The position numbers and the translations under genes are program-made. The notes under the pieces were generated by a model that did no database searches, was not told the origin of the DNA, and saw nothing but the letters and a program-made list of their open reading frames with translations. A DNA stretch of 64,000 nucleotides from Ianthella basta. Lineage: Eukaryota > Porifera > Demospongiae > Verongiida > Ianthellidae. Below are positions 28,455-60,143 of the stretch, piece by piece. The stretch spans positions 5,930,950 through 5,994,949 of the forward strand of contig OZ025887.1 of assembly GCA_964019415.1 (NCBI GenBank), written 5' to 3'. Position 1 is the first letter of the stretch; the number at the start of each line of letters is the position of its first letter.

Positions 28455-35909
<7,455 letters not shown>

Positions 35910-36532
35910 CAGTGACAAAGTTGTGACTAATTATGACAAATTGTTGGTGTTTTATAATTACGTGACATTTTCCCGGCTGTTAGTCTGTCTCATTATGGCT
36001 GGCTGTGTTTCCACCCCTTTCTGTCACCTCCGCAGCTGGTGTACTTTGTACAATAAATACACTTTTGAATGGTTTTTGTGAAGAATGTTGACACAGTAGA
36101 AGTGCATGCTATTAACCACATCAGTGAAAGGACTCAGGTATAGGCAAGCACGAACAGGAGCAATGGTTACATTAAGACACACAAACACAAGTGTCCTTAG
36201 CTACAAAGTTAGTGTCCTTAACAGCAGCTCTAGAAGATTTCTGTTATTGGACTATTCTACTATGCCTCGATGGCTGCATGCCTTGTGTGTGTCTGCTCTT
36301 CGGTATATGCACTTCAGATCATATAATATATGTTGTTTGCTTCATCACATCAAGTATAAAGCATAATTATGTATAATTATGTTAAGTCAAACATAGTACC
36401 TCTGATACAAGAGTGTAGTGTGAGAGATTCCAAAACATTTAAAGTCATTACAAAATGTACAAATGAATAAGCTTGTGGATATGTACATGCTGTATGTTGT
36501 CACACTATTCATACTGTGGGGGGGGGATTACA
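35910..36532. other. Convergent spacer with poly(A) signal
   Basis: 623 bp between the large protein stop and the proposed kinesin-ankyrin stop. AATAAA at 36052-36057 fits the plus-strand gene. The rest is AT-rich with no recognisable gene. Confidence 0.5.
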
Positions 36533-37888
36533 TCATTGATGTACTGGGGCAACGGTGTTACTCCGCCCACACAAGACGGGAGCAGACACAGTGTCTGCCG
36601 AGGAGGAGCCACACAACAAACTAATCCAACCTCTTCGCTGGCTCCTCCCACCAGTTGAACTGGTACACTGCACAGGACAGGTGGAAGAAATGCAGCGTCA
36701 TGGCACTATATATGCCTGTGTGTGTACTGTATATACCCTAGTCTCGCGCGCCAGCCCCTATTATTGCGCAATCGCGCTTAGAATAGTTTTCCGCGATTGC
36801 GCAATAAGGGAAATAGGGGCTGGCGCGCGAGACTATATAATTATACTATGGCACTACATATGTCTGGGTGCGTACTGTACATACCCCTCCTCATTACAAG
36901 CTCCCGAGCCCAGCCCAACAATGCTCCTACCTTCACATCCACCCTCACACTCACTGTCACACCCTCCCCCACTCCCACTGTCACCCATCCTCACTCCCAC
37001 CCTCACTCTCATCTGCATTCCCACACCAACACACCCATCCTCACACCCACACCTCATCACCCACACCCTACCTCAGCATCTGGTGTCTGTGGTGACCCCA
37101 CTGAAGCAGGACCAATGTCACTCACAGACTCTGAACAACCAGTAGCTTCAGAAGGACCTGCAGCAAGAGCAACCAGTGAAGGACATCGTGTGTGAGAGAA
37201 GACCCAAGCTGTGTACACTGCACACCACAATGACACTATTGCTCGTGACACACCTTGCTGGCTGCTGCCAGCTCCCTGCCCAGGTGAGCCTGCCGTGTGG
37301 TCCAAAGCACTGCTTGGTCTACTCTCACGGTCATTACCGTCTGCTGTCCCTCGGTCAAAGAGCTGCGAAGTGGTGAGGAGGGAAGCACCCCCAGGACGAT
37401 GAAGAGGGACGTGTCCGTACTCGTCAACTGTGGAGGGCCCACTGGATGGCACCTGGAACTGGGAGGCAATGGAGATGTTGGAAGGAAGACGCTTCAGTCC
37501 ATATGTCTCCAGAGTCTGTATGCACTCTGTGTAGCCTCTCTGCAGGGAACAGTGAAGAGGGAGGGGAGGGAAAGAAAGTGGGAGAGGGAGGGAAGTGGAA
37601 GAGGGAGGGTAGAAGTGGGAGGTGCACAAGTAAGAGTGAGAGGGTGGGAGTGGGGGCATATTGACATGTCAACACAGAAGAAGTGGGCCACACAGTGTAC
37701 TGGTCTTGATGTAGCGACAACTGGCTGCTACCTGAAGGGAAAGGTGCTCTGACCCACCTGCTGCGCATGGTTCAGAGCTGTCATTCCTCTTTTGTCCAAC
37801 TGGTTTCTATCAGAGCCCCGCCTTTGGGAGGTGGTGGGAGGGGCAGAGGAAGAACAGCTTAACTACACATGCCCACATGCATGCTCAT

Positions 37889-37980
<92 letters not shown>

Positions 37981-38437
37981 GCACGCACACACCTCAGCAG
38001 CAGCTGCAATACTGCAGGCTGGTTAGCAGCTGCTGCCCAGTGGAGAGGGGTTGTCCCTTGGTAGTCCGTACAGTGGAGGTTGCAGCTGAGTGGGCAAACA
38101 ACACAGAGGGCAGTACCAGCAGGCTAGTTAACACACCGACACATGTCAGCAGATGAGACAGGGACAACTGTCACACACTAGAGAATGTATTGAGCTACTT
38201 CTACAGCTCACACTGTTACCAAACTCAATAGTACACGTTCAAACACTTTGCCCCTCATCCAGCAATCCTGCCCATATCTGTGCCCCTCCCATTTTCCTTG
38301 TGCCCCTCCCACCTCTTATAAGAAAGGAGGGTCCTGATACAGTCTACAGATCCCTCAGCGCAGGCATAATGCAGTGCGGTCCTCCCTTTCCCATCGCACA
38401 AGTTGACAACCTCCTCAGCATGGTCCAGGATGGCCTG

Positions 38438-38487
<50 letters not shown>

Positions 38488-40238
38488 CACAAGAGATAGA
38501 AATGCCAGCACAACATGGCCGGTGTGAGAGCCACCACACAGCACAACTCACACAGGACCATGGAAGCACCACGTACCTTGATACAATTTGGAGAGAAGTT
38601 GAGGATGGCGTAGTTGAGGGGAGTGCGTCCGTTGGGGTCCTGTGCTGTGGCATCCACTTGGGTAGAGGAGAGGAAGATGTGGATGTGGGCGTCTTGGTCA
38701 CACATCACAGCCCAGTGGAGGGGGGTAAGCCCCTCATTGTCCTGAGGAGGTTGAACCATAAACAAATACAAACATGAGTAATATGTGAATAACACAAGTG
38801 AAGTCCAAGAAACTGCACCAAATTGAAGTAGAGACTCAGAGCCAGGGTTGGAGTAAACAGCTCACCGTCTTGTTCTGGACACTTCTTCTGACATATTTGC
38901 AGAGTACTTTGATGCACTGTGTGTCAGCAGTCTTCATGCTCCAGTGGTAGGCGGTCCGGTTCTCAGGGTCTGTCTTTAACACATCAGCTTCATGTCTGAG
39001 GCAGGCAGGTCACATGAGCCACACCATCAAACACACCCTATCGACCACACCCCAGAAACCACACCCACAAGACCACACCCACAAGGCCACACCTCTTCCA
39101 GCACATACTGTGTTGTGACGTAGCATGCACCTACCAGTCCTCGCTGCCCCAGAGTGGCTCACCGAAGGAGGACCTTCATTGCTTGTGCCCTGGCCCTGTA
39201 CGCAGCCCAGAGGAGCGGAGTCAGTCCGGCTGCATCAGTCACATTCACATTCGCACCCAACTGAAGGAGGACCTGCAGACAGACATCAAAACTGAAGAAT
39301 AACTGGAACCCTTGAGTTTAGTGTGGGGCAGGGACTGTGTGCTGAGGGACAAGGTGAGTCTGTGTGTAAGTGATGTCAGTCATACACACCTCACACATCT
39401 TGGGCTGGTTGCCTAGCACTGCATACATCAGCGGAGTGCGTCCACCTTGATCCCGGTACTCAACCCCATACTGAAACACCTGCAAAAATAGCAATGGGGA
39501 CACAAAATGGGATTGGGGATGGCACAGCAATCACAGGACACCAAGTTCACATGACCCACTATAGCTTGAAGACTGAGATTCTCTCACACTTACCAGTTTC
39601 TTCATTGTACTGGACTTGACACCTTCCATAGCTGCCGTGTGGATCTCCACAGAGCTGGCAAATTGCTGTGAATCTCTAAAGTAGTCCCCAACGGCATCAG
39701 TTGATGAGGCAGAACGCAGGCCACTGCTGTGGGCTTCTTCCATATTGTAAGTGGGTGGATTGGCAGCTGGTCTCCCCTTGTGGGAGCTTTGGGGGTCTTG
39801 GCCACTCCCATGGGTGACTTGGTCATAATGAGGGGGTTCTACCCCTGCATAGCCATATGGTGCTAGCTGCTGTCCATGGTAATGAGCTATCACATTCCCA
39901 TTCCCACCTTCACTGGGAATGGGAGGCAGGCTGGGCCTCCCGAGGGACATCCGCTGGTGTTGGGGTAGTTTAAGTGTGTGAGCAAGTCCTGGACAAGGAA
40001 GAAGACATTCATACACATCACTCTGACAGAAATGAAGAGGAGTACTGTGTGTGTGTGTGTGTGTGTGTGTGCGTGCGTGCGTGTGTGTGTGCGTGCGTGT
40101 GTGTGAATGTGTGTGTGCGTGTGTGTGTGTGTGTGCGTGTGTGCGTGCGTGTGTGTGCGTGTGTGTGTGAGAGAATGTGTGTGTGCGTGTGTGTGTGTGT
40201 GTGCGTGCGTGTGTGTGTGTGCGTGTGTGTGTGAGAGA

Positions 40239-40336
<98 letters not shown>

Positions 40337-43300
40337 AAGTAGTGCTCAGCACCTGACTGTGTCATCTCGTCCTCAGACTCAGACCCCAGACTACTCAGGC
40401 TGTCACTAAGCTCTGTGTGTGCACCGTAGATGTTAACAGTGCCAGGAGGCGGGTCTCTTCCTGTCACATGACGGATGGGAGCCAATCGGTTTCTTGCAGG
40501 AGGGAGATGTGCCATGTTCACTGACTGAACAGGGGGTAAATTTCGATTTGTTGTTGGCATGGAAACAGTTTTCTGCTTCAGCTGAGGATGACGAACAGGA
40601 GGGAGATCTCTTGCTGCAAGGGGCATGGAGGAAGTGGGCTGGGCCATATACTGAGTAGGACCTTCATCATCAGCTGACACCACTGACGCTACGCTACCAC
40701 TCTGATGTGAGATGCTAACAGCAGACTCAGCCTGCATATCCTCTCCTCTACTTGTTCCTCCTTGATCAAGTACTTGGGCTGCTAGAGGAGGCGGATGCTC
40801 TTCTTCCTCCCCATCCGAGGGTGGGAGGCGTTGAGGGGGTCCACCACGCCCACTAGGGACATCAGGAAGAGGCGCCAATGTCCTCTCCATCACTTCCTCC
40901 ATTTCAGCAGAGCCTGTGCCTTGACCTGAACTGCCAACACCCTGCTGGGGGGCTGCCTCCCCCTCCTCTGCACTGGTGAAGGGTGCCAGTCCTTGTTGTG
41001 CCAATTGAGCTGAGAGGGATGTACTGGGATCCACCGGGCTCAAGTAGCTGGGCGCAATGGGCTCCATCTCTGACTGGAGCGGTTTACGAGCTACCTTGTG
41101 GGGTGGGGACAAGGGCACACTCTGCTCCTCCGTGCTGACCGAACCAGCTGCCCCCTCTGCAGTTGAAGCTGTGTTGGGAGTACCCAACCCGTGCGTGTGA
41201 ATGCAAGTTATTGTTGCCTCTGGCTCTAACTCCTGATCTGCGCTAGAAGCCAGTGAGCTGGGAACACCTTGTTGTACTGTCTTGGCTGTAGCAGGTTCAT
41301 GCGGTAGGGGCGTATTGGCAGTGAGGTCTTGCTCCAAGGTGGTGGCTCTTGCTTGCTGGGGCGTGCTCATGTGTTCGTCAGCTGCCATTTTCTTCTCTGT
41401 AGTCTTTGAAGATGATGGCTCCTCTTCATTACCCTTAGTAACAGTGTCTGGAGGTGGAGTCACTGGTGGATCCATTTGCTCACCATGTGGTGATACCACT
41501 CCCTTATCGGTCACTCCATTCTGGCGAGGTGGTGGATCAGACAAGAAAGTTCTCGTACCAGTAGAGCGTGTAGGGCTCTGATTGGGCTGATCTGCTGTAT
41601 CACCCTGCTCCTCACTGCTGCTGTCTCTCTCAGAAGAACGTTCAGGCAAACGTTTCCTTCTCTTCTTCTTCTTCACATGGCCTTCTCCCATTCCAACCAC
41701 CTTCGATGCATGCTGAAATGGTAACGGCTTGGCTTTGACTTCTTCTTCCAGTTGAACACCATCCCGGCCATCCTCTGGTTGCATCGGAGAAGGGGCAGAG
41801 GGCAGCTTTGGAGGGAATGGGTGCTCGGAAGGAGCTGGCATTGCTGGAGGTCGAGGAAGGATGCCACCAAAGGGCAGCTGCCCCAGGGGGAGGGGTTTCT
41901 TGATACCACCTCCTAGATTATATCCCGGCAAGCCCTGAGTATAACGATAATAGCAATTCAACAGTGCACAAGTGGAAATAACACAGCATTCCATTCTGTA
42001 TGCAATGTAGAAAAACATGCATTCTATCTATCAATATGTACACAGTTAGCCATATACATTGGTGTCTGTCTCCATCCTGCTTACCGGTAGTCTCCCTGGG
42101 GGAGCCCCTCCCTGCTTGCTCATGGATGGGAGGCTCGCAAGAGGCAGTGGAGGCCTTGGGAGGAGGGAGCCAAGCGGAGGGGCTGTGGGTGGCTGAGATG
42201 TTCTGCAACACAATGGATGCCAGCCAGTGGGAGTGGAATTATTAATAGGTAACTACGGCAACCTGTAGGCTGTAACCATGGCAACCATGCCCTTACAGTG
42301 GCGGTAAAGTGACCAGGTAGCAATACCAGGTCGGAACTAGGTGTGTATGCATCTGTACATCTGTGTGTGTATGTACCTGTGTGCAGCTAGGGGCTTCCCC
42401 CCTTCCACCAGATTCTGTTCTGCAGCGGCAATAGCTAGACAGAGATCCCTGCAGGAAGCTGTCACATCCTCCACAGCAGACCCATTCAGGGACAGAGTGC
42501 CATTGGCATGGACTTCCATGTTGCTTCCCTCCTCTACCCCGAGCTTCCTCTGCAACTCCTGTCGTGCATCACTGGCCGCCTTCCAATGCTGCCACACTGC
42601 AGTCAACTCCTGTGCTACTTCACTCCTTTCTGGTGTCACCTTCACCTGCTGCAGTTCTGAAGCTAGCTGAAGAGCCGGGAGAGTCCTCTCCACAGAGTCA
42701 GTGTGTATGGCAGATAGGAAGAAAAGCACACTCTTGCGATCAAAACAGTGTCGCAAAACTTTGGTGAACACTGAACCAGTGGTGACTTCTGCCAGCTTCT
42801 CCTCGCTGTCACCGCTGTACATGCTGTGGAGTGTACTGTGGAGTGCTAGTATGCTGGATCCCTCTTTGAGGAGGTGAGGTGAGTGGTGGCACCTCTCTAC
42901 GGCAGACCCAGACAAGTCAATGACTGTGAGGCGTCCCACTAGAGGTTCACTGCCACTAGAAGACAGCTGCTCAACACGGAGTGCAAACACAGCATGTGTT
43001 GCATGGCCCCGTGCTGTCCCACGACCAGCTATGGGAGAGTGTGGGGCACCTTTTGGAGGGAGAACAGACGACCTACTGGAGGAGGTGGGTTCTCGCTCAC
43101 TCCCTGTTGCATTCCTCATTAAAGCACCTCTCTCAATAGCCTGGATGATATCAGCTGGCGAGGACACCACTGTGTTGGTTGCACCATCAACGATGTAGTC
43201 CCCTGCTGTGGTCCCAACCACTTGGAGGGACCTCTTGCGACCGTCCAACAGGTCAGCTACACGCCCGTCCTCAAAGACGTGGTAGAACGATACTGTCATG

Positions 43301-43698
43301 TGAAACCGTTTCCCGCTGCATTCGCGGCTCTGAATCTTGTCGAACAGCTGCATTCCTATTCGCGCAGCCAGCCCACGCGCTTCTGGCCTAGTCCGTGACT
43401 GTCCCGGGGTCCCAAACAGACTGAAGCTCTTTCCGGAGCTGGGGTATCCATAGCTAAGCAGTGCGACATTGGTACCCTTCAAAAGAGATTCGGCTGCTGT
43501 CTCGCCTAATCCTTCTTCAAACAGCTGTTCGTGAGTGCATGCAGAACCAAAGACGCGGCCACCCTGAAAGCGAAATTCCCGATTTGCTGCAACGCTGCAA
43601 ACCGACCCTTCCTCGGAGTCGATTGTCCAAGCCAGCTGCTCCGTATCTGCAGGTTTGGCTCGTATGAGAATCTGCACTGAGCTTGAGTTGGAATCCAT
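36533..43698 (-). CDS. Divergent kinesin motor fused to ankyrin repeats
   Basis: Exons, phases all consistent: 43698-42377, 42202-42085, 41934-40353, 39988-39594, 39479-39390, 39272-39163, 38995-38866, 38741-38577, 38434-38313, 38085-37993, 37806-37758, 37539-37254, 37157-37072 and possibly 36667-36533; about 1560 residues. Residues 1-340 resemble a kinesin motor: P-loop GYPSSGKS (84-91), [21 protein letters not shown] then SSRS (207-210), an insertion before ATHAVF, and DLSGSA (261-266) in place of DLAGSE. A short helical neck follows. Residues about 480-1140 are Pro/Ser/Glu-rich with a KKKKRRKR cluster. Exons 5-12 encode about seven ankyrin repeats ([52 protein letters not shown]). The last exon is least certain. 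It is head to head with HAAO. The family is not recognised as a fusion. Confidence 0.75.
36739..36835. mobile_element. GC-rich palindromic element
   Basis: 97 bp, a near-perfect inverted repeat: TAGTCTCGCGCGCCAGCCCC at one end and its complement at the other, with CGCGATTGCGCAAT arms around a 15-bp loop. It sits in the proposed last intron of the kinesin-ankyrin gene. Probably a MITE. Confidence 0.65.
37891..37976. repeat. (CA)n microsatellite in kinesin-ankyrin intron 10
   Basis: About 43 CA units followed by GCACGCACGCACAC. Confidence 0.93.
38440..38490. repeat. (CA)n microsatellite at the left duplication breakpoint
   Basis: CA array in the intron between exons 8 and 9 of the kinesin-ankyrin gene. 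The copy in unit 2 begins within this array (46232), so the duplication breakpoint lies here. Confidence 0.8.
40044..40336. repeat. (TG)n microsatellite in kinesin-ankyrin intron 3
   Basis: About 290 bp of TG with GCGTGCG and GAGAGAATG interruptions. The equivalent place in unit 2 (48260-48292) has only about 40 bp. Confidence 0.93.
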
Positions 43699-43843
43699 GA
43701 CGTCAGTGCACACCAATACACACGTTCATGTCAAAGGCGTGGTACTGCTGCTTTGATTTCAGCAAGGCCACGTTGAGTTAACGCCATCTTGTTTATTTGT
43801 TTGCTCGAGCATAGATCTGACCACGCCCTCGTTACGCAACAAA
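43699..43843. promoter_or_regulatory. Divergent promoter kinesin-ankyrin/HAAO
   Basis: 145 bp between divergent start codons. TGACGTCA (43697-43704), a perfect CRE, overlaps the minus-strand ATG. GCCATCTTG (about 43783-43791) matches a YY1 site. TTACGCAA (about 43832) resembles a C/EBP site. All three regions can be compared with the unit 2 copy, where the CRE and the YY1-like site persist. Confidence 0.5.
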
Positions 43844-45413
43844 ATGGCCGAGACATCCCAGGATGTCAGTACCAGTACTACCCCGTCCATCGTAAGTGGA
43901 AGAAAGAAAGGTGCCCAATCCGAAGAGCCAGAGTCCAAGAGAGCTCTTATGGAAGAGGCTCCGGTCAATAAGGTATCACAATGGATTGAAGAGAACAAGA
44001 ATTTCTTTCTTCCACCTGTGTGCAACAAGTTGATGTACGGGAGACAGCTCAAAGTAATGTTCATTGGAGGACCCAATGTGAGGAAGGACTACCACATGGA
44101 GGAAGGAGAAGAGGTGAGGATAACGGGAAGGATAAATTATTGCCAATCTGTGTCTTGTCTTCCATTGTGTTTGCTACGTATAAAGTTATTCTTCCTGCGA
44201 GTATTAGTGGTTCTATCAGCTCAAAGGGGATATGGTCCTGAAGGTGGTGGAGAAAGGAGAGCACAAGGACGTCATCATCAAGGAGGGGGAGTGCTTCATG
44301 CTCCCGTCCCGCATCCCGCACTCTCCCCAGCGCTTTGAGAACACTGTCGGCCTGGTCATTGAGAGGGATAGACTGGACACTGAGACAGATGGACTGAGGT
44401 AACACCATACACCACTACCAACGTGAGCTCTGCATTGTACACCACCATCATTGCCACTGCATACAACCTGTATTGACCTTTGATGTGTGCAGGTACTATG
44501 TTGACGGCTGCACTGACACACTGTGGGAGGAGTGGTTCCATTGCTTTGATCTTGGGATACAGCTTGGACCTGTCATTAAGAAGTAAGAGATACTCTTCCT
44601 TCACTGGCACACCTGTAAAGGGTGTAGGGGTGGTCTAATCAGCCTAGACTACACTCATAGTTCAATGATGTTGCTCTAGCCTAGTATTTGGGTTGTACTA
44701 GTGGCCAAGGTATCATGGAAGTTGGGCCTCCTGTGTCGATGCTGTTGGTGTGTTGTGGTGTAGGTTCTTTGCATCTGAGGAGTACAAAACTGGCAAGCCA
44801 CCCGAGGACAAGGTGTTTGGGCCACCTCCATTTGAGCTTAACACCACTACCTCCCTGGCAGAGCCAATCAACTTCAAGCAGGTTAGTGGCCATGACAGAG
44901 GAAAGTCAGACTGGCATTGCAATCATGTCTTTAATGCTTTATTCTAGTCCATCAAGGACAGCAAGGCTGAGATTGAGGAAAAGGGAAGCAAAATCCTGTT
45001 TGGTGAATCTAGTGGTGAATTTCAGGTTGGTTGTGTGCATGCATGCTTTTATTGATGAACCACTTCACCAGTGGTGGTTGCCCTCGCACACTGTGTGCCT
45101 GTGCAGGTAACAGTGTGGGGTACCAGTTGCCAAGAGGAAAGCTATGAGGGTGAAGTGTTTCTATGGCAACTTGAGGGCGAGTCAGAAGTTACTCATAGTG
45201 ATGGTAGTACCACTGTGCTGGAGGAGGACTCCTGCCTCATCATCCCACCCAAGGAGAAGTAAGTTGAATGTTCTCAACAGTGCATTGTCTGCTTGCGATT
45301 TTGCTTCACATTCACTACGACATTATTGCAGGTTTTCAGCCACCTGTAAGAGCGGTGGCAGGAGGCTGTCAGTGAAGACAGACCCACTGGCTAACAAGCC
45401 AAAGGAGCAGTAA
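43844..45413 (+). CDS. HAAO: 3-hydroxyanthranilate 3,4-dioxygenase (intact copy)
   Basis: Non-haem iron cupin enzyme of the kynurenine pathway that opens 3-hydroxyanthranilate on the way to quinolinate/NAD. Exons 43844-44113, 44208-44398, 44493-44582, 44764-44881, 44948-45025, 45107-45258, 45332-45413; about 326 residues, some 40 longer than the vertebrate enzyme because of an N-terminal extension rich in Ser/Thr/Lys. The iron ligands are visible: His in [15 protein letters not shown], Glu in the same block and His in [10 protein letters not shown]. The second cupin lies in exons 5-6. AATAAA at 45582 is a likely poly(A) signal. A decayed paralogue lies in unit 2. Confidence 0.93.
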
Positions 45414-45646
45414 CACACTCCACAAAGACTATTTTGACCCATTCATTTCAGTGCTTAGTACACAGTTGCCAACACTTACTGCTTTAACAAACAAGTAGTG
45501 TAAATTTCATGGAAAAGGCTGTGCAGTGTGTGAAGAAGCTTGTGAAATGGAGTGCAAGAGTGCATGTCATGCTAACAAAATAATAAAGAAAGTGGTGTCA
45601 TAAGTACTGCTAGAGAAAGAAACAAGATATAATGCAGCTGCAGCGA
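45414..45646. other. Convergent spacer HAAO/TMEM229 (unit 1)
   Basis: 233 bp with AATAAA at 45582-45587. Nearly identical to 55964-56196 in unit 2. Confidence 0.6.
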
Positions 45647-46231
45647 TCAACCATCATTGCTTTCATCCTCTCCTTCAGCACTGCAGGAAAATGTCACTGG
45701 CTGGCTTCTCTGCTTTAAGTTAGTCCCAGAGAAGGTTCGGATCAGAGTGTGTGTTACAATGTGGGTTGACTGGACCAGGTCACTGTCAGATTCTACCACC
45801 GAGTAGCGCTTCCATGATGCACTCCTCTCCAAGCTCTGTAGGTACTGATACAACTGCTCAAAGTACAGTCCCCCCAGAAACCAGGCGGGGGTGTACTCCA
45901 ACGTTATAAGGCCAGCAAGTTGTAGTCAAATGCAGAGTAGTCCCATGGGCACATTCCGAAGTAGCTCAGGATGAGGCCGAAAGAGAACTCCCATATGTAT
46001 GTAAAGAGTACATAGATGCTGCACCGCACGAGGAGGTGCACTTTCCATGCCGTCAAGATGTCGCAGATCAGTTCTGCAAGCAGCAGCGTCCCCAGTCCGT
46101 AGATAAAGAAGGCCCAAATGGAGGACACCCCCTTGAGGGCTAAATCACCCGTGACCACATACTCCCACACACTGGTGAAGACCATTTCAGTGAAGATACC
46201 ATGAATGCCCCAGAAGTACAACCTTGCCAGG
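45647..46231 (-). pseudogene. TMEM229 pseudogene (unit 1 copy)
   Basis: Same coding sequence as the intact gene at 56197-56793, but the duplication breakpoint removed the start codon and promoter (homology stops at CCAGG, 46231). A one-base deletion near 45914 (GGCCAGCAAG against GGCCAAGCAAG) shifts the frame and leads to an early stop at about 45904. Confidence 0.88.
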
Positions 46232-46907
46232 CACGCACACACACAAGAGATAGGAATGCCAGCACCACATGGCTGGTGTGAGAACCACTACACAGCACAA
46301 CTCACACAGAACCATGGAAGCACCACATACCTTGATACAATTTGGAGAGATGTTGAGGATGGCATAGTTGATAGGAGTGTGCCCATTGGGGTCCTGTGCT
46401 GTGGCAACCACTTGGGTAGAGGAGAGGAAGATGTGGATGTGGGCGTCTCGATCACACATCATGGCCCAGTGGAGGGGGGTAAGCCCCTCATTGTCCTGAG
46501 GAGGTTGAACCATAAACAAATACAAACATGAGTAATATGTGAATAACACAAGTGAGGTCCAAGAAACTGCACCAAATTGAAGTAGAGACTCAGAGCCAGG
46601 GTTGGAGTAAACAGCTCACCGTCTTGTTCTGGACACTTCTTCTGACATATTTGCAGAGTACTTTGATGCACTGTGTGTCAGCAGTCTTCATGCTCCAGTG
46701 GTAGGTGGTCCGGTTCTCAGGGTCTGTCTTTAACACGTCAGCTTCATGTCTGAGGCAGGCAGGTCACATGAGCCACACCATCAAACACACCCTATCGATC
46801 ACACCCCAGAGACCACACCCACAAGACCCTACCCACAAGGCCACACCTCTTCCAGCACCTACTGTCAGTGTGTTGTGACGTAGCATGTACCTATATACTA
46901 GTCCTTG

Positions 46908-47343
46908 ATGAGTAAGCAGGTCACAGCAGGGAATCATTAATGCAATCCAAGACGTTTTGATCCGGAGATCTTCATCAGTTGTACAAAACTTAAAGGGGGG
47001 GTTGTGAATTATATAGGGCAGCTATGGGCAGGAAAGTGGAGACTGGGGGACAACATAAGATGAGAATTATGTAAGGGCATTAAGTAACTAAAGCATAGTC
47101 TATGGAAAATTAATAATGGGGGGAGGGGGGTCATGTGAGGAGGGGGAACCAAATACTGTCTAAAGTTAGTCCACCATCTAGGTTAATTTGTTGTGTTTGC
47201 TGTCTGGTGGATGTGGAGAGCTTCTGCGATCCTTCTGTGGGAGAGGTTTGGCACAACTTCCTTCACTTTGGCAGATTCCCAATCCACTTGGTGACCGGAC
47301 TTGTACAGCAATGCCATTCTTTTGGTCCTGCTTCTTCACCGCC
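46908..47343 (-). mobile_element. 5'-truncated Penelope-like element fragment
   Basis: 436 bp inserted relative to unit 1 and flanked by a 12-bp repeat TACTAGTCCTTG (46896-46907 and 47344-47355). The minus strand encodes GHQVDWESAKV and INLDGGLTLDSIW, matching the end of the GIY-YIG endonuclease domain of Penelope-like retroelements. Downstream lies CTGATGAAGATCTCCGGATC followed by AAAACGTC, the ATGAAG...ACGT type motif common at their 3' ends. Only the 3' end is present. Confidence 0.75.
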
Positions 47344-48259
47344 TACTAGTCCTTGCTGCCCCAGAGTGGCTCACCGTTGGAGGACCTTCATTGCTTGTGC
47401 CCTGGCCCTGTATGCAGCCCAGAGGAGTGGAGTCAGTCCGGCTGCATCAGTCACATTCACATTTGCACCCAACTGAAGAAGGACCTGCAGACAGACATCA
47501 AAACTGAAGAATAACTGGAACCCTTGAGTTTAGTGTGGGGCAGGGACTGTGTGCTGAGGGACAAGGTGAGTCTGTGTGTAAGTGATGTCAGTCATACACA
47601 CCTCACACATCTTGGGCTGGTTGCCTAGCACTGCATACATCAGCGGAGTGCGTCCACCTTGATCCTGGTATTCAACCCCATACTGAAACACCTGCAAAAA
47701 TAGAAATGGGGATACAAAATGGGATTGGGGATGGCACAGCAATCACAGGACACCAAGTTCACATGACCCACTATAGCTTGAAGACTGAGATTCTCTCACA
47801 CTTACCAGTTTCTTCATTGTACTGGACTTGACACCTTCCATTGCCGCTGTGTGGATCTCCACAGAGCTGGCAAATTGCTGTGAATCTCTAAAGTAGTCCC
47901 CAACGGCATCAGTCGATGAGGCAGAATGCAGGCCACTGCTGTGGGCTTCTTCCATATTGTAAGTGGGTGGATTGGCAGCTGGTCTCCCCTTGTGAGAGCT
48001 TTGGGGGTCTTGGCCCCTCCCATGGGTGACTTGGTCATAATGAGGGGGTTCTACCCCTGCATAGCCATATGATACAAGCTGCTGTCCATGGTAATGAGCT
48101 ATCACATTCCCATTCCCACCTTCACTGGGAATGGGAGGCAGGCTGGGCCTCCCGAGGGACATCCGCTGGTGTTGGGGTAGTTTAAGTGTGTGAGCAAGTC
48201 CTGAACAAGGAAGAAGACATTCATACACATCACTCAGACAGAAATGAAGAGGAGTACTG

Positions 48260-48292
48260 TGCGTGCGTACGTGTGCGTGTGTGTGTGTGTGC
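48260..48292. repeat. Short (TG)n, contracted allele of the unit 1 array
   Basis: GTGCGTGCGTACGTGTGCGTGTGTGTGTG at the place where unit 1 has about 290 bp of TG. Confidence 0.85.
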
Positions 48293-49131
48293 AAGTAGTG
48301 CTCAGCACCTGACTGTGTCATCTCGTCCTCAGACTCAGACCCCAGACTACTCAGGCTGTCACTAGGCTCTGTGTGTGCACTGTAGATGTTAACAGTGCCA
48401 GGAGGCGGGTTCCTTCCTGTCACATGACAAATGGGAGCCAATCGGTTTCTTGCAGGAGGGAGATGTGTCATATTCATTGACTGAACAGGGGGTAAATTTT
48501 GATTTGCTGTGGGCATGGAAACAGTTTTCTGCTTCAGCTGAGGATGACGAACAGGAGGGAGATCTCTTGCTGCAAGGGGCATGGAGGAAGTGGGCTGGGC
48601 CATATACTGAGTAGGACCTTCATCATCAGCTGACACCACTGACGTTACGCTACCACTCTGATGTGAGATGCTAACAGCAGACTCAGCCTGCATATCCTCT
48701 CCTCTATTTGTGCCTCCCTGATCGAGTACTTGGGCTGTTACAGGAGGCGGATGCTCTTCTTCCTCCCAATCTTGTCGAACAGCTGCATTCCTATTCACGC
48801 AGCCAGCCCACACACTTCTGGCCTAGTCCACGACTGTCCCGGGGTTCCAAACAGACTGAAGCTCTTTCCAGAGCTGGGGTATCCATAGCTAAGCAGTGTG
48901 ACATAGGTACCGCTCAGAAGGGATTCGGCTGCTGTCTCGCCTAATCCTTCCTCAAACAGCTGTTCGTGAGTGCATGCAGAACCAAAGACGCGGCCACCCT
49001 GAAAGCGAAATTCCTGATTTGCTGCAATGCTGCAAACCAACCCTTCCTCGGGCTTGATCATCCAAGCCAGCTGCTCCGTATCTGCAGGTTTGGCTCGTAC
49101 AAAAATCTGCACTGAGCTTGAGTTGGAATCC

Positions 49132-49275
49132 ATGACGTCAGTGCACACCAATACACACGTGCATGTCAAAGGCCTGGTATTGCTGCCTTGATTTCAGCAA
49201 GGGCCATGATGAGTTAATGCCATCTTGTCTGTCTGTTCGAGCATCGATCTGATCACACCCTCATTACACAACAAA
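49132..49275. promoter_or_regulatory. Duplicated divergent promoter (unit 2)
   Basis: Copy of 43699-43843. The CRE TGACGTCA at the minus-strand ATG and GCCATCTTG are retained; the TTACGCAA site has changed (TTACACAA). Confidence 0.5.
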
Positions 49276-49662
49276 ATGGCCAACACATCCCAAGGCGCGC
49301 AAGAGAGCGTCAGTACTACCCCGTCCATCATAAGTGGAAGAAAGGTGCCCAATTCGAAGAGCCAGAGTCCAAGAGAGCTCTTATGGAAGAGGCTCTGGTC
49401 AATATGGTTTCACAATGGATTTAAGAGAACAAGAAGTTCTTTCTTCCTCCTGTGTGCAACAAGTTAATGTACGGGGAACAGCTCAAAATAATGTTCATTG
49501 GAGGACCCAATGTGAGGAAGGACTACCACATGGAGGAAGGAGAAGAGGTGAGGATAACGGGAAGGATAAATTATTGCCAATCTGCGTTTTGTCTTCCATT
49601 GTGTTTGTTACGTCCGTCAGGCAGCACACCGAACTGGTCACTCGGAGAGGGAATCAACTCAA

Positions 49663-49848
49663 TGAACACACACATGAGGCAGGCACATATCTGCGCATGC
49701 GTACAATATAACATAAGAATAATAAGTAGGTGTACCTGCATGTGACAGTAACATGATGTCAGAATAATAATAACCATGCGCTAGTGACTACTATGTATGC
49801 AACTGAACACAACACAAAATCAGTACAGTGTTAACACACACTGTCACA
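49663..49848 (-). repeat. 3' LTR of the Gypsy element
   Basis: 186 bp aligning with 54542-54713. It has about 30 bp (TACCTGCATGTGACAGTAACATGATG region) that the other LTR lacks, plus scattered substitutions, so the insertion is not recent. Confidence 0.8.
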
Positions 49849-49889
49849 CTGCCCCCCGCAGGGAAATAAAGCCAACCCGGCTTTAAGTA

Positions 49890-52800
49890 CTAGTTGAAAT
49901 CTGAACGGTAGTAGTCTGGGGCTGCACGCTGACGTCGAGGGTAGCGAGGTGGGGGCATTGGATGCTGTTGCTGCTGTGGGCAACAGGTGGTCAGGTCAAC
50001 ATCGTCCACAACTTCGAGGGTTGTGCCAGGGGGCTGTGGAGTGGGCTCACCAGGGGGATCCCCTGGACTTGGGGAGACTGGTGGAATAGTAATGGAGAGG
50101 CGGATGTCTGGTGGGCACAGCTTGAGGCGGTCAAAATGCACTACTAGGCGCTGGCGTGTTGCCTGAGTATTCTGGATGTGGTAAATCGTATCTGAGAGCT
50201 TCCTCACCACATGGAAAGGTTCGGTCCAGGGACGCCAGAGCTTCTTGGATTGGCCACGCGACACTGCAGGCGAATGGAGCCACACCAAATCTCCGCACTC
50301 GTAGGGTTTACCGTGAACCCTTCTGTCATAGAGGTCTTTCTGGCGACATAACTAGTGGCCTAACTGCACCCTCACCTGACGGTAGGCTGACTCCAGACTT
50401 TGATGGAGCTTCTCAGCATATTCCACAGGAGAGCAGGCCTGAGGGGTCGGGGTTCCATACATCACATCGATGGGCATCCGTGCTTGGCGGCCAAACATTA
50501 GGTAGAATAGCATGTAACCAGTTGTTGAATGTATACTGGTGTTGTATGCCATACACAGGCAACGGAGGTGTCCCTTTCATTCAAATGGGCGCTCCTGGGC
50601 CGTGGTGGCCAACATAGCCAAAAGGGTCCGGTTAAAGCGTTCTACCAGACCATCGTATTGTGGGTGGTAAGGAGTTGTACGGGACTTGGCAATACCCATG
50701 AGCTTGCACACCTCAGCGTTTACAGTGGACTCAAACTGCCTTCCCTGATCTGAATGCAGCTGCTCCGGTGGTGAGAAACGGAAAAAGAGCTCGTAAGTTT
50801 TCTGGCTACTGTGGTGGCCTCCTGATTTGGTAGTGTATATGCCTCTACCCACCGAGTGAAATAGTCCAAAGCTACCAGGATGTACAAGTTCCCAGCCTCT
50901 GATTCCGGGAGTGGGCCAAGGATGTACACAGCTACGAGCTGCATGGGGGTTCCTACTTTAATGCTTGTCAGTGGGGCCCTTGTCGGATGGGTGGGGCTCT
51001 TTCGGCTGGCACAAACTGCACACTTGCCACACTAATTCTGTACATCTTGGTAGTGACCTGGCCAGTAGAACCTCTCCTTTAGTCGAGCGAGTGTCTTCTC
51101 CATTCCCAGGTGGCCACACATCTCCCCTTCATGTAGGTCAGTCAATACCTCGCCCGTAGTGGTCCTGGTACCACCAGCTGCAGTTTCTCCTCCTTCCCCA
51201 CGGGGTCTTCAAACAGTCCATACAGCACACCATTCCGCACAACTAGCTGCTCCCATAGCTGCACCAAGCGTCTGCTGGCCAAGCTCATCTCTTTTAATTG
51301 GTCTCCTCTCGGACGCTGGTCGGCTTGCTTTGCCTGTAGGGCCAGTGCAATGTCAGTATCTGCCAGCTGGGCAGTACGAAGCTCCTCTAGTTGGCAACCT
51401 ACAGGCATGATAGGGGTGGCAGCAATGATAGCTGGGGAGTGGTCTTCTTGGCCACACTGTCGACAGGGGAGACGTGACAAGGCATCTGCATTGGTGTGCC
51501 TCCTACCTTGGCGGTGAACGATCTCGAAGTCATACTCCTGCAGGCACTCAAGCCGGCGTACTAACTGACCCTCAGGCTCCTCGAAGTTCCAAAGCCATAC
51601 TAGGGATCCATGGTTGGTTCGCAGCTGGAAACGCCTGCCGGCCAGGTAGGGCTTGAACTGCTTGATGAATGTAACTACAGCCAGGAGTTCTCGCCGGGTG
51701 ACACAGTACTGTCGTTCTGCCTTGCTAAGCACACAGCTACTGTAGGCAACTACCGCTCCTGCCCTGCCTCGTCAAGCTAGGACAAAACTGCTCCCATTCC
51801 CACTCCACTAGCATCTGTGTCCTGAATAAAGGGGCAATTGAAGTCAGGGTATGCTAGTAGCGCGGTAGTAGTGAGCAGGTGGCATAGCTTCTCAAAGGTG
51901 TGTTCACACTCATCTGTCCACAGGTAGGTAGCCCCCTCCTCAGTGAGGCAATGCAGTGGCTTAGCTATCCCTGCAAAGTCTTGGATGAAACGGTGGTAGT
52001 AGCTGGCAAAACCAAAAAATTGCTGCACCTCTGTCTTGGTGGTTGGCATGGGCCAGGTGGCAACCCGCTCCACATTAGCAGGGTCGGCTCAGACTCCCTC
52101 CCTGGAGACCAAGTGGCCTAGGAGCTGCACTTCCTCCTGAAACAGAGTACGCTTGGCAGGCTTAAGTTTCAGTCCAGCTTCCTGTAGCCTGGCGAACACC
52201 ATCTGCAGATTCTCCAAGTGTTCCAGAAAGGACTGCCCCAACACAATTACGTGATCGAGGTAGACCAGACAGTGGGCCCAGTTGAGTCCAGCGAGGATGA
52301 AGTCCATGAGACGCTGGAAAGTTGCCGGAGCGTTGCAGAGACCAAAGGGCATGACCTTGAACTCAAAAAGGCCCTCTGTTGTGCAAAAGGCAGTCTTCTC
52401 CCTATCTGCTTCAGCTACTTCCACCTGCCAGTACCCGCTGACCAAGTCTAGGGTACTAAACCACCTTGATCCAGCTAGGGTGTCCAGTGTCATGTCAATG
52501 CACGGCAGTGGGTAAGCATCTTTTCGGGTCACCTTATTCAGCTTGCGGTAGTCCACGCAAAACCTGGTGCTGCCATCCTTTTTAGTCACAAGTATGATGA
52601 GTGAAGCCCAGGGGCTGCTTGACCGCTGGATGACTTCTTTCTCCTGCATCACCTTCAGCAGCTGCTGCACCTCTTCTCTACAATATGGGGGAATCCGTCT
52701 GATTGGCTGTCTGATAGGCGTGTGGTTAGTGGTGGTAATTTCATGATGGATGACACCGGTCCGGCCGAGGTCTGCCCCAGAGCTGGAGAAGATGTCAGAA

Positions 52801-53909
52801 TAGGCCAACAACAGATGGTACAAAGACGTTTTCTCACCTTCTTCGAGCCCAGTTCCAGCCTTCTCTACCATTCCCCACAGCAGCTCCTGTTTCTCGTGTG
52901 GTACTGATGCCCCTTCATCAGGATTAGCTGGGGTGCCTAAGCCTTCACTGGCCATGGCCACAGTGATGTGTCCCTCCACTGGTTCAAGGGTGGCAATCCG
53001 GCTCCCTTTGTAAAGGTTAACAGGCTCTGGCCTTGGGTTGAGCAGCCCCACTACCACCTGATCTGATTGAGGGCTAACAACTGCTCTGGCAACACAGGCT
53101 GCATGGCGTTCACCAGGGGCCTTCTCCAGCAACCATGTTCCACCCTCTACTGGCTGGGACAGACGGGCTATCACCTCTACTTCACTGTTGGGTGGGATGC
53201 AAGTGGTAGTAACAGCACATACCATCGGTTGGGCTGTGGGGGGTGTTCCAGCTTCTGTTAACGACAGGGTACAATTGCGGCCACCAAGGAGAAGCTGCCT
53301 ACTCTTCACATCAATGGTTGCTTGGTGCTTCTTGAGGGAGTCGAGGCCAAGGATACCCTTGGTAGTGAGAGGGCTACCTACAAGTGCTTCAGTGTCCAAG
53401 GCCTTGCCTTGGGCAATGATGGTGACAGGTGCTTGGCCGTGCACCTCAATGGGATAACCGTCCACTCTCACCAACTTCAGGTTGGCCCAAGGCTGCAACT
53501 TGGTCGGCTGCTTGGCGTTGACTCGTCTCCAAACATCTCTGCTGATGAGGGTGACAGCAGCACCGGTGTCCAGTAAGAAAGATATGGGCTCACTGCCCAC
53601 CTCACAAGGTATGCACAGATAGCCAACAGGGGTAATAGGGTAAATGTACAGGGGGTTATTGGGGTCATTGGCCAGTTTATTGCCCTCATGTGTCTGGCCA
53701 CACACGCCGAGGGCTGCTAATTTTCCGTCGATGGTCGGCTCCGGGGGCAATCCTGGGCCAGGAACACCACACTGCCAGCATATGCCCCAAAACTGTGACC
53801 TACCCCCTACTGGTCCAGTCCCTTGACCCCCACTAGGTGCTGCCCGGCCTATGTACTGCTTGCTGGGGTGCTGATGTGGTAAGGAGCATTCATTCTCCAG
53901 CCTCTCCAA
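49890..53909 (-). pseudogene. Gypsy pol region (protease, RT, RNase H, integrase), broken
   Basis: The longest open piece (53909-52089) runs from a zinc-knuckle-like CWQCGVPGPG through a protease DTGA motif to the reverse transcriptase (FCVDYRKLN, MPFGLCNAPATFQ). The catalytic box reads YLDH, so the second Asp of the family YxDD is lost. A stop near 52089 precedes the RNase H part (51777-52073), another stop precedes the integrase zinc-binding part (51142-51732), and the integrase core (HSDQGRQF, near 50750) and C-terminal segment (49890-50288) are in separate frames or pieces. No intact enzyme is encoded. Confidence 0.88.
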
Positions 53910-53965
53910 TCTAGCTGTCAGTCATTTCACATCTGCAGCCAGTGGGTCTCGCGCCCCTACCACAG

Positions 53966-54472
53966 CTACAGTACCCTCACCCTCTCTTTCCTCCTCACCT
54001 TGTACACTGGCGACCACGTCTTGGCTTCAAGCAATAGGCCTCCATCTCTAGTGTGCATGGCGTTCATGGCCTTGTCCAGTTTCGCTGGTCGCTTCTGCCT
54101 GACACTGAATACAACCTGGGGGTGTTCAAGCTGCTGTAGGTACTGGTTGACAGCCAGCCGCTCCCTTGCCGCTTCCTCCAAGTCCGGGTATGCCTTGTCA
54201 ACCAGGGTCTTCAGGTGGTCAGCGAAATCGGCCCAAGACTCGGACTTCTATTTGGTACAGGTCTGGAACTCCGCGTGATAACGGCTCTGGCGACTCTTCG
54301 GATCAATCCGCTCCTGAAGGGCTTTCTTCGCCTCCGTGTAGTCTGCCTTCGCCTCCGCAGGGAGCCACTGGAAGGCTGTCTGGGCTTTCCCGGTAAGCCG
54401 CACCTTGAACCATTTCAACTTCTTCCCCACGTCCCAATCGTTCACGTCCACGACGCTCTCGAAGTGGTACAA
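53966..54472 (-). pseudogene. Gypsy gag region, broken
   Basis: Pieces 54472-54248 (WFKVRLTGKAQTAFQWLP, a retrotransposon gag helix) and 54181-53966 are separated by a stop and precede the zinc-knuckle segment of pol. Confidence 0.75.
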
Positions 54473-54541
54473 CCACGATTCCTAAGAGCTTTCGCCTAAA
54501 AACGGCTCTGGCAGCACCAACGGCCACCACTCCACACTCAA

Positions 54542-54713
54542 TGAACACACACACGAGGCAGGGGCACATATCTGCGCATGCGTACAATACAACGTAAGAA
54601 TAATAATTAAGTAGGTGTCAGAATAATATATAATAACCATGCACTAGTGACTACTATGTATGCAACTGAACGCAACACAAACTCAGTACGGTGTTAACAC
54701 ATACACTGTCACA
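54542..54713 (-). repeat. 5' LTR of the Gypsy element
   Basis: 172 bp, begins TGTGACAG on the minus strand and matches the left LTR. Confidence 0.8.
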
Positions 54714-56196
54714 TGTTTGCTACGTATAAAGTTATTCTTCCTGTGAATGTTAGTGGTTCTATCAGCTCAAAGGGGATATGGTAGTGCATGAAGGTGGTGG
54801 AGAAAGGAGAGCACAAGGACGTCGTCATCAAGGAGGGGGAGTGCTTCATGCTCCCGTCCCGCATCCCGCACTCTCCCCAGCGCTTTGAGAACACTGTCGG
54901 CCTGGTCATTGAGAGGGATAGACTGGACACTGAGATAGATGGACTGAGGTAACACCATACACCACTACCAACGTGAGCTCTGCATTGTACACCACCATCA
55001 TTGCCACTGCATACAACCTGTATTGACCTTTGATGTGTGCAGGTACTATGTTGACGGCTGCACTGACACACTGTGGGAAGAGTGGTTCCATTGCTTTGAT
55101 CTTGGGATACAGCTTGGACCTGTCATTAAGAAGTAAGAGATACTCTTCCTTCACTGGCACACCTGTAAAGGGTGTAGGGGTGGTCTAATCAGCCTAGACT
55201 ACACTCATAGTTCAATGATGTTGCTCTAGCCTAGTATTTGGGTTGTACTAGTGGCCAAGGTATCATGGAAGTTGGGCCTCCTGTGTCGATGCTGTTGGTG
55301 TGTTGTGGTGTAGGTTCTTTGCATCTGAGGAGTACAAAACTGGCAAGCCACCCGAGGACAAGGTGTTTGGGCCACCTCCATTTGAGCTTAACACCACTAC
55401 CTCCCTGGCAGAGCCAATCAACTTCAAGCAGGTTAGTGGCCATGACAGAGGAAAGTCAGACTGGCATTGCAATCATGTCTTTAATGCTTTATTCTAGTCC
55501 ATCAAGGACAGCAAGGCTGAGATTGAGGAAAAGGGAAGCAAAATCCTGTTTGGTGAATCTAGTGGTGAATTTCAGGTTGGTTGTGTGCATGCATGCTTTT
55601 ATTGATGAACCACTTCACCAGTGGTGGTTGCCCTCGCACACTGTGTGCCTGTGCAGGTAACAGTGTGGGGTACCAGTTGCCAAGAGGAAAGCTATGAGGG
55701 TGAAGTGTTTCTATGGCAACTTGAGGGCGAGTCAGAAGTTACTCATAGTGATGGTAGTACCACTGTGCTGGAGGAGGACTCCTGCCTCATCATCCCACCC
55801 AAGGAGAAGTAAGTTGAATGTTCTCAACAGTGCATTGTCTGCTTCCGATTTTGCTTCACATTCATTACAACATCATTGCAGGTTTTCAGCCACCTGTAAG
55901 AGCGGTGGCAGGAGGCTGTCAGTGAAGACAGACCCGCTGGCTAACAAGCCAAAGGAGCAGTAACACACTCCATACAGACTATTTTTTTGACCCATTCATT
56001 TCAGTGCTTAGTACACAGTTGCCAACACTTACTGCTTTAACAAACAAGTAGTGTAAATTTCATGGAAGAGGCTGTGCAGTGTGTGAAGGAGCTCGTGAGA
56101 TGGAGTGCAAGAGTGCATGTCATGCCAACAAAATAATAAAGAAAGTGGTGTCATAAGTACTGCTAGAGAAAGAAACAAGCTATAATACTGCAGTGA

Positions 56197-56793
56197 TCAA
56201 CCATCATTGCTTTCATCCTCTCCTTCAGCACTGCAGGAAAATGTCACTGGCTGGCTTCTCTGCTTTAAGTTAGTCCCAGAGAAGGTTCGGATCAGAGTGC
56301 GCGTTACAATGTGGGTTGACTGGACCAGGTCACCGTCAGATTCTACCACCGAGTAGCGCTTCCATGATGCACTCCTCTCCAACCTCTGTAGGTACTGATA
56401 CAACTGCTCAAAGTACAGTCCTCCCAGGAACCAGGCGGGGGCGTACTCCAACGTTATAAGGCCAAGCAAGTTATAGTCAAATGCAGAATAGTCCCATGGG
56501 CACATTCCAAAGTAGCTCAGGATGAGACCGAAAGAGAACTCCCATATGTATGTAAAGAGTACATAGATGCTGCACCGCACGAGGAGGTGCATTTTCCATG
56601 CCGTCAAGATGTCGCAGATCGGTTCTGCAAGCAGCAGCGTCCCCAGTCCGTAGATGAAGAAGGCCCAAATGGAGGACACCCCCTTGAGAGCTAAATCGCC
56701 CGTGACCACATACTCCCACACACTGGTGAAGACTATTTCAGCGAAGATACCATGAATGCCCCAGAAGTACAACCTCGCCAGGTACGGAAGCAT
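56197..56793 (-). CDS. TMEM229: TMEM229-family membrane protein (intact copy)
   Basis: Single-exon gene of 198 residues. Family blocks seen: YFWGIHGIFAEIVFTSVWEYVV, VSSIWAFFIYGLGTL, FTYIWEFSFGLIL, CPWDYSAFDYNLLGLITLEYAPAWFLGG, matching TMEM229A/B along the whole membrane region (about four to five helices). The last 60 residues are a polar cytosolic tail, longer than in vertebrate TMEM229B. The molecular role of this family is not established. The unit 1 copy is a pseudogene, so this is the working copy. Its ATG is 77 bp from the divergent MED9 ATG. Confidence 0.9.
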   Translation of the reverse strand: MLPYLARLYFWGIHGIFAEIVFTSVWEYVVTGDLALKGVSSIWAFFIYGLGTLLLAEPICDILTAWKMHLLVRCSIYVLFTYIWEFSFGLILSYFGMCPWDYSAFDYNLLGLITLEYAPAWFLGGLYFEQLYQYLQRLERSASWKRYSVVESDGDLVQSTHIVTRTLIRTFSGTNLKQRSQPVTFSCSAEGEDESNDG

Positions 56794-57820: not shown

Positions 57821-60143
57821 TCAGAGCATGAAGAGTAGGTCGTGGTTGCGTTCCCCGGTTCCACAATAAAAGGCGCCATAGTTCCTGGTGCATGGCACAT
57901 GGTAGAATGTATAGCCCAGCCACACCAAACTGCGGAGGATTGCCACAGACCCATCCTCGAGCTGCACACTCCAGCAACCTACACACAGAGCAAGACGGCA
58001 CACAGCCATGGCTGCATGATGCTACCTCAAGTGACACACCACAGCAAACACACAAGTGACACACCACAGCAAACACACAAGTGACACACCACAGCAAACA
58101 CACAGGTGACACACCACAGCAAACACACAAGTGACACACCACAGCAAACACACAAGTGACACACCACAGCAAACACACAAGTGACACACCACAGCATACA
58201 CACAAGTGACACACCACAGCAAACACACAAGTGACACACCACAGCAAACACACAGGTGACACACCACAGCAAACACACAGGTGACACACCACAGCAAACA
58301 CACAAGTGACACACCACAGCAAACACACAAGTGACACACCACAGCAAACACACAAGTGACACACCACAGCATACACACAAGTGACACACCACAGCATACA
58401 CACAAGTGACACACCACAGCAAACACACAAGTGACACACCACAGCAAACACACAAGTGACACACCACAGCAAACACACAAGTGACACACCACAGCAAACA
58501 CACAAGTGACACACCACAGCAAACACACAAGTGACACACCACAGCAAACACACAAGACACACCACAGCAAACACACAAGTGACACACCACAGCAAACACA
58601 CAAGTGACACACAAGCCAGTGGAATGCTTTGAGATTTTATAGCTGGCAAAGACCTTCACAGTCAAAACATCCAACACAGTCTTACAAATTGGCCGCTGTG
58701 TCTGTCTGCCAAGCACCTGAAATTATAGGCTACAGTGTTTCACTGCTATGTTAGAGCTATTTGGGACCAGTGAGGCTTGCTGTGCGTTACTGGGGCTACC
58801 TTATACAGTAACTTTTCTTTAGACAGGATTCTGTATATCACTGGAGAAGCTAGTTAACTGCCACCCCACATTAGCAATTAGGGAACTTAAATCAGTGCTT
58901 GGCCTATCAGTGTTGCTCCATTTAAGCCCAGTACATCCCATGAATGAATCCTACACATATGTACGGTAGCTTAAGCAACACTCGTGCACTCACCGTTGGG
59001 GATATCACCCTCTATGCTGTCAAGAAACTCCAATGTTTTGTTGACCCCGGTCTTCCTTGATAATAGGTCCTTGCTATTCTCCTGCACTGGCTCTCGGAGA
59101 AGCATGTACTGGCCCAGCTTCTGTGCATCTCCCAGAGATAAACCTGGGGAGGGAGAGGGAGAGAGAGTGGAAGAGGGAGAGGGAGAAGGAGAGAGAGAGG
59201 GAGAGGGAGGAGAGGGAGGAGAGGGAGAGGGAGAGGGAGAGGGAGAGGGAGAGGGAGAGGGAGAGGGAGAAGGAGAGGGAGAGGGAGAGGGAGAGGGAGA
59301 GGGAGAGGGAGAGGGAGAGGGAGAGGAAAGGCCACAGAACCTGCATACTAATCACTTGGGGAATGCCAGCACCACTGAACATCAATAATTGATTACTCAT
59401 AACAAATGAAATTTCAGTTGTGACACCATCGAATTACAGTCATGCAGGTGCACATACAAAGTATAGGGCACACCTTCAAAAGCCTTGTTGCACTTTACAA
59501 CTCCAGTTGGGGTCTTCATGACTGCCCCCTGGGGCACAATCCCCACTTCCTCCTCAATGGTGGTCACCACAGCAGCCAGACGGTCCTCCTCTTTCATCTC
59601 CACTGTTGTGGTTTCTTCGTGTGCCCCCTCCCCCTCCCCTGTCCTGTGTGACACTGTGTGCTCATACACAAAGGATGGGTCGCCAGAGAAGCGGCCTCGC
59701 AACAAGCTAGCTCTCATCATGAGTGCACCATCAGCCGGAGGAAGAACGGACCAGTTCAGGCAATCCTGGCTGTATGAGACAAGAAGACAGTCTAGTACAT
59801 CACACACCAGCACAGGGGAACATGGGTAATTCTATTGGTCAAACCCAAACATTCACAGACGTGCATGCACTCTGCAGCTAGTCATTGAGTGAATCAATTG
59901 AGGACTGAAATTGTACCTGTAGAGGTACTTTTTGTCTTGGATTTCGTCATCGTCTATCCCCTGAGCAATGAAATAGTTCTTCTTGATTCCTTTGACCATT
60001 CCCCAGAGTTTGACACGCTTGAACTTGTGTTGACTCTTCAAAATAGCAAGGGACGTTTGCAGAGTGGCCTTCTGTTCGACACTAAACACTACTCCGCTGC
60101 TTTCCAGGAAGGAAGAATTCTGGATAAAGGAATCGCCCTCCAT
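57821..60143 (-). CDS. RSPH9: Radial spoke head protein 9
   Basis: Component of the radial spoke head of motile cilia and flagella. Exons 60143-59917, 59769-59474, 59143-58994 and 57978-57821 give 276 residues, the same length as human RSPH9. Matching blocks: KRVKLWGMVKGIKKNYFIAQG, CLNWSVLPPA, RGRFSGDPSFVYEHT, IVPQGAVMKTPTG, AFEGLSLGDA and the ending YHVPCTRNYGAFYCGTGE...FML. Intron 2 holds a GGGAGA array and intron 3 a 25-bp minisatellite. An X-box-like site lies 14 bp upstream of the ATG. Its presence implies a life stage with motile cilia. Confidence 0.96.
58021..58612. repeat. 25-bp minisatellite in RSPH9 intron 3
   Basis: About 23 tandem copies of AAGTGACACACCACAGCAAACACAC, with A/G and A/T variants (CAGGTGAC, GCATACAC) and one copy that lacks GTG near 58554. 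Confidence 0.96.
59150..59332. repeat. (GGGAGA)n repeat in RSPH9 intron 2
   Basis: About 180 bp of GGGAGA/GAGAGG units close to the exon 3 acceptor, which on the coding strand is a CTCTCC tract. Confidence 0.93.

Follow-up and report, generated by a model that had tools for sequence, protein, structure and literature searches.

The minus strand of a 64,000-nucleotide window from the sponge Ianthella basta (contig OZ025887.1, positions 5,930,950 to 5,994,949) carries a 14-exon gene model that joins a kinesin motor to an array of ankyrin repeats. Built from the raw sequence between window positions 43698 and 36533, the model codes for 1565 residues and runs from the motor through a 668-residue Pro/Ser-rich linker to eight ankyrin repeats with a cap, followed by a tail (Table 1). 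Based on the sequence, motor and ankyrin domain probably belong to a single fused gene. The explanation that we favor, at roughly even chances, is that its product would serve as a ciliary scaffold rather than a walking motor, with a pseudo-motor joined by a long disordered linker to an ankyrin domain of the inversin/ANKRD55 type. Open reading frames elsewhere in the window match a BK-type potassium channel, actin, 3-hydroxyanthranilate dioxygenase, and reverse transcriptase.

Table 1. Features of the fused gene model and its tandem copy (window positions).
Feature	Position	Strand	Description	Basis
Exon 1	42377..43698	-	residues 1-440; motor ~1-355, then helical stretch	Pfam, PDB kinesin-1
P-loop GYPSSGKS	43426..43449	-	residues 84-91	PDB alignment, motif scan
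Switch I region	42994..43080	-	SSRS (207-210), 24 extra residues, then His of THAVF (235)	
Switch II DLSGSA	42901..42918	-	residues 261-266; Glu of DLAGSE absent	
Exon 2	42085..42202	-	Pro-rich linker begins	splice model
Exon 3	40353..41934	-	bulk of the linker (527 codons), with KKKKRRKR at 41673-41650	splice model
Exon 4	39594..39988	-	linker end and ankyrin cap	splice model, scored junction
Exon 5	39390..39479	-	ankyrin	splice model
Exon 6	39163..39272	-	ankyrin	splice model
Exon 7	38866..38995	-	ankyrin	splice model
Exon 8	38577..38741	-	ankyrin	splice model and Pfam
Exon 9	38313..38434	-	ankyrin	splice model and Pfam
Exon 10	37993..38085	-	ankyrin	splice model and Pfam
Exon 11	37758..37821	-	ankyrin; absent from first 13-exon model	splice model
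Exon 12	37254..37539	-	last ankyrin repeat ends, tail begins	splice model
Exon 13	37072..37157	-	tail	splice model; without homology support
Exon 14	36533..36667	-	tail and stop codon	splice model; without homology support
Truncated tandem pseudogene copy	46232..49133	-	its ATG at 49133	copy comparison

All 13 introns of the model are GT-AG and phase-compatible, bearing out the preliminary description in its claim that the chain continues in phase from the motor exon to the ankyrin exons, and the stop codon of the chain ends at 36533. In 11 of the 13 introns, a generic donor matrix scored no site within 100 bases above the chosen donor; in the remaining two, the chosen donor placed second among 12 and third among 21. 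An initial chain of 13 exons left one ankyrin repeat incomplete and one acceptor unusual. Both faults were resolved by adding a 64-base exon (37821-37758), which completes the repeat to 35 residues and lets exon 12 begin after a canonical CAG, so the exon count was corrected to 14 while the in-phase joins stood. The extra exon had been overlooked earlier, and so had the array's likeness to inversin and ANKRD55.

The first exon encodes a kinesin-like motor, as previously proposed. Pfam Kinesin (PF00225) matches across the whole domain (2.3e-32; 112.7 bits, cut-off 29.3), Microtub_bd matches in the same exon (4e-11), and the top match among 134 PDB sequences is kinesin-1 (70.5 bits, E value of 1.2e-18). 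The domain shares its N-terminal position with the kinesin superfamily, as well as an intact P-loop with the GKT/S ending (GYPSSGKS, at residue 84 as first reported). In contrast, neither the canonical switch I motif NxxSSRSH nor the switch II motif DLAGSE is present. As the preliminary description had noticed, SSRS lacks its following His and leads into an insertion of 24 residues, and switch II reads DLSGSA at residue 261, its Glu being either replaced by Ala (HMMER alignment) or deleted (MAFFT alignment). The kinesin-1 alignment halts at residue 200 and restarts at 232. The PYRDSK motif, in a region that contacts microtubules in kinesin-1, is also lost: when aligned with a KIF5B reference that is not a database copy but matches the PDB kinesin-1 chain except at a few Cys positions, NKSLSALGNVISAL of KIF5B falls on a 14-residue stretch of this motor, and YVPYRDSKMTR falls on an altered 11-residue stretch in which the motif is gone. 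A single-sequence structure prediction for residues 1-370 was of low confidence (mean pLDDT, 37.9; pTM, 0.39) and was not used.

The altered switches make an active motor less probable but do not bear on kinesin membership by descent. Taken together, the retained P-loop, the insertion in switch I, the missing switch II Glu, and the lost PYRDSK motif suggest that the head likely binds ATP without effective hydrolysis, and the earlier reading of an impaired motor is supported at this level. Kinesins of the KIF26/VAB-8 type, with altered switches and heads lacking normal ATP turnover, provide a precedent. Membership in the KIF26 type (kinesin-11) was not supported, with phmmer reporting no match to a KIF26B reference, likewise not a database copy, versus 64.5 bits for the KIF5B reference, and no assignment of the motor to a kinesin subfamily emerged. 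The E236A mutant of kinesin-1 is reported to have an ATP on-rate near that of the wild type and almost no hydrolysis, leaving the head trapped on microtubules (PMC12005725). With its microtubule contacts changed as well, the present head is more safely predicted to bind ATP without hydrolyzing it effectively. Microtubule binding by the head is uncertain; of the “microtubule-binding scaffold” suggested earlier, we retain the scaffold, and the changed PYRDSK region weakens the microtubule binding.

The linker (residues 441-1108) contains 14.5% Pro, 10.9% Ser, and no Trp, and the residues WFYCILV make up 16% of it versus 31% of the ankyrin part. It was previously put at 500 residues, which is too short, and its KKKKRRKR basic cluster is present as described, at residue 568. 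The ankyrin array that follows (residues 1109-1414; Pfam Ank_2, 2.4e-51) comprises eight repeats with a T-P/A-L-type motif, spaced by 33, 33, 35, 34, 34, 34, and 33 residues, plus a cap, confirming the repeats of the preliminary description and raising its count of about seven.

As a single collinear alignment, the array scores 151.3 bits to inversin (INVS, NPHP2) and 149.0 bits to ANKRD55, two about equal values obtained with reference sequences that are not database copies. The array shares SYxSCN with the inversin reference, and a 35-residue repeat ending in DNEG stands at the same place in the ANKRD55 reference. Since these inversin and ANKRD55 references score about equally with each other (140.3 and 131.5 bits), the array would stand beside these two proteins, not inside either. 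Neither inversin nor ANKRD55 is known to carry a kinesin head. We rejected an inversin orthologue; eight repeats and a cap are too few against 14 to 16, and the tail lacks IQ motifs. None was found after residue 1414, and the single strict IQ-like match (residue 185) and one more loose match (residue 1371) lie within the motor and the ankyrin part, respectively. Two inversins with 14 to 16 ankyrin repeats and IQ motifs have been reported from sponges (PMC4818920). Inversin is described as a ciliary protein found with microtubules (PMC11974183), and ANKRD55 is reported to move with IFT-B in Xenopus cilia, which are disturbed by its knockdown (PMC5488662).

A direct repeat of 38478-46235 immediately follows the original as 46232-56786, in five blocks with 91 to 97% identity. 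Within it, the copy of the gene (46232-49613) has no counterpart of ∼40816-43332 and so lacks 318 of the 440 codons of exon 1, all 39 of exon 2, and 373 of the 527 of exon 3; exons 9 to 14 are also absent. Codon 113 has become a stop (R113*), and the deletion junction is out of frame. Codon changes include 41 nonsynonymous (the stop among them) and 31 synonymous, and divergence is similar in exons (77/1719) and introns (32/764). CpG loss between the copies is uneven, at 18 versus 4 in the block with the motor start and, reversed, 4 versus 11 in the dioxygenase block; the counts in the other three blocks are 6/2, 9/6, and 3/5. Judged by its coding changes and divergence, the copy is a tandem pseudogene in neutral decay and carries no evidence about transcription, and it may be a false duplication from the assembly of two haplotypes. 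The preliminary description stated that the duplicate keeps the exon order and took this as support for one gene. We rejected this argument because the copy is a decayed pseudogene and because a tandem duplication at the DNA level preserves the order of one gene or of two alike.

The critical join is intron 3, which connects the linker to the ankyrin part. Two neighboring genes on the same strand could have been read as one there, if a kinesin-like gene ended within or beyond exon 3 and an ankyrin gene began in exon 4 or the intron before it. The donor of intron 3 is the weakest of all 13, an ATG is present early in exon 4, and without splicing the exon 3 frame would cross a His-Thr repeat before reaching a stop near 40018, all of which would suit two genes. 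However, the best donor scored within 41000-39996 (40353, phase 1) and the most pyrimidine-rich AG within 40060-39901 (39988, needing two more bases) agree in phase although scored apart, an agreement with a chance of ∼1 in 3. No AATAAA or ATTAAA occurs on the minus strand in 35801-43791, which is a weak argument against a gene end here because none follows the final stop either. On balance, we consider it unlikely that two separate genes have been misread as a fusion. That the locus itself is decaying or unexpressed, as the adjoining pseudogene and the very divergent motor might suggest, seems remote, considering a 1565-codon frame that stays open over 14 exons, one of 527 codons, with good splice sites.

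Within a single fused gene, the head could still be a working, if slow, motor that carries the ankyrin part as a cargo adaptor along microtubules or axonemes. The intact P-loop and the good alignment of the N-terminal half of the motor (residues 6-200) with kinesin-1 are consistent with such activity, but the insertion in switch I, the missing Glu of switch II, and the loss of PYRDSK make it very unlikely. The fused protein might instead bear a generic ankyrin domain with a nonciliary role, in which case the likeness to inversin and ANKRD55 would reflect general ankyrin similarity. Ankyrin repeats are widely alike, as the 331 distinct PDB sequences matching the array at 1e-10 illustrate, and the sequences of inversin and ANKRD55 used for comparison were not database copies. 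Against this, the five best PDB hits reach only 76.9, 94.8, 67.2, 76.9, and 59.1 bits in their best single alignments, so that the array in collinear alignment with the inversin and ANKRD55 references outscores all five. Only 8 PDB sequences total more than 149 bits, these five, inspected alignment by alignment, and three others that are designed proteins by name. We regard a generic domain as quite unlikely.

Under the favored reading of a ciliary scaffold, the ankyrin array would dock to ciliary partners, either IFT-B or proteins of the inversin compartment. Through its P-loop, the head would bind ATP with little or no hydrolysis, serving on its long flexible tether as a module for binding or regulation that is held by nucleotide. 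The sequence shows both domains, the changed motifs, the open frame, and the compatible exon phases; a single transcript, the loss of hydrolysis, and the ciliary location and partners are inferred.

In a survey of 1624 kinesins, 1300 are reported without an identifiable domain outside the motor, and most of the 105 domain architectures occur in one organism only (PMC2867816). A defined cargo-type domain on a kinesin chain is thus informative. The words ankyrin and ANK are absent from the main text of that survey, and the kinesin-ankyrin combination was not found in the literature searched, a body that most subscription papers fall outside. The domains are of known kinds, and their combination may be new, short of a proven first. 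None of 102 pattern matches in prokaryote contigs and none of 7 in viral contigs was a relative of the motor exon, which says little on animal orthologues, and no fused relative was found in these prokaryote and viral collections.

If real, the fusion links a kinesin head to the ciliary group of inversin and ANKRD55 and suggests a contact between motor and adaptor to look for in other animals. It would also be a naturally occurring counterpart of E236A, the mutation with which loss of the switch II Glu is studied in kinesin-1 (PMC12005725). More tentatively, the protein may be a ciliary adaptor that is specific to its lineage and carries a kinesin head of its own, a nucleotide-gated, nonwalking anchor fused to a scaffold of the inversin/ANKRD55 type. 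Were this true, the fusion would hint at an interaction of kinesin with this group of ankyrin proteins, one that other animals achieve with separate proteins.

The kinesin-ankyrin gene and the adjoining 3-hydroxyanthranilate dioxygenase gene start head to head at 43698-43844, with a gap of ∼145 bases from ATG to ATG. This interval is perhaps a promoter common to both genes.

Elsewhere in the window, an open reading frame (ORF) at 8200-9465 matched actin in two stretches (6.5e-28), and repeats of ∼10 bases lie around 8602-9169, after the actin match. At 978 codons, a plus-strand stretch at 29575-32508 is the longest in the window without a stop codon; it had no Pfam match at 0.01. A tandem array at 57878-58702 is built of a 25-base unit, with 97-99% likeness among its middle copies.

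The duplicated dioxygenase gene carries an insertion (see the table) that looks like an LTR-type retroelement, because a minus-strand ORF inside it, at 52092-53921, gave reverse transcriptase and retropepsin-like matches and because it has terminal direct repeats that are 83% identical (49657-49848 versus 54536-54713). Based on an in-frame stop in the first exon of this second copy (GAA to TAA, read by eye), we infer that it is decayed, like the neighboring kinesin-ankyrin copy.

Features of the duplicated dioxygenase gene
Feature	Position
3-Hydroxyanthranilate dioxygenase gene start, second copy	48768-49613
Insertion in duplicated dioxygenase gene, ∼5.1 kb	49614-54713
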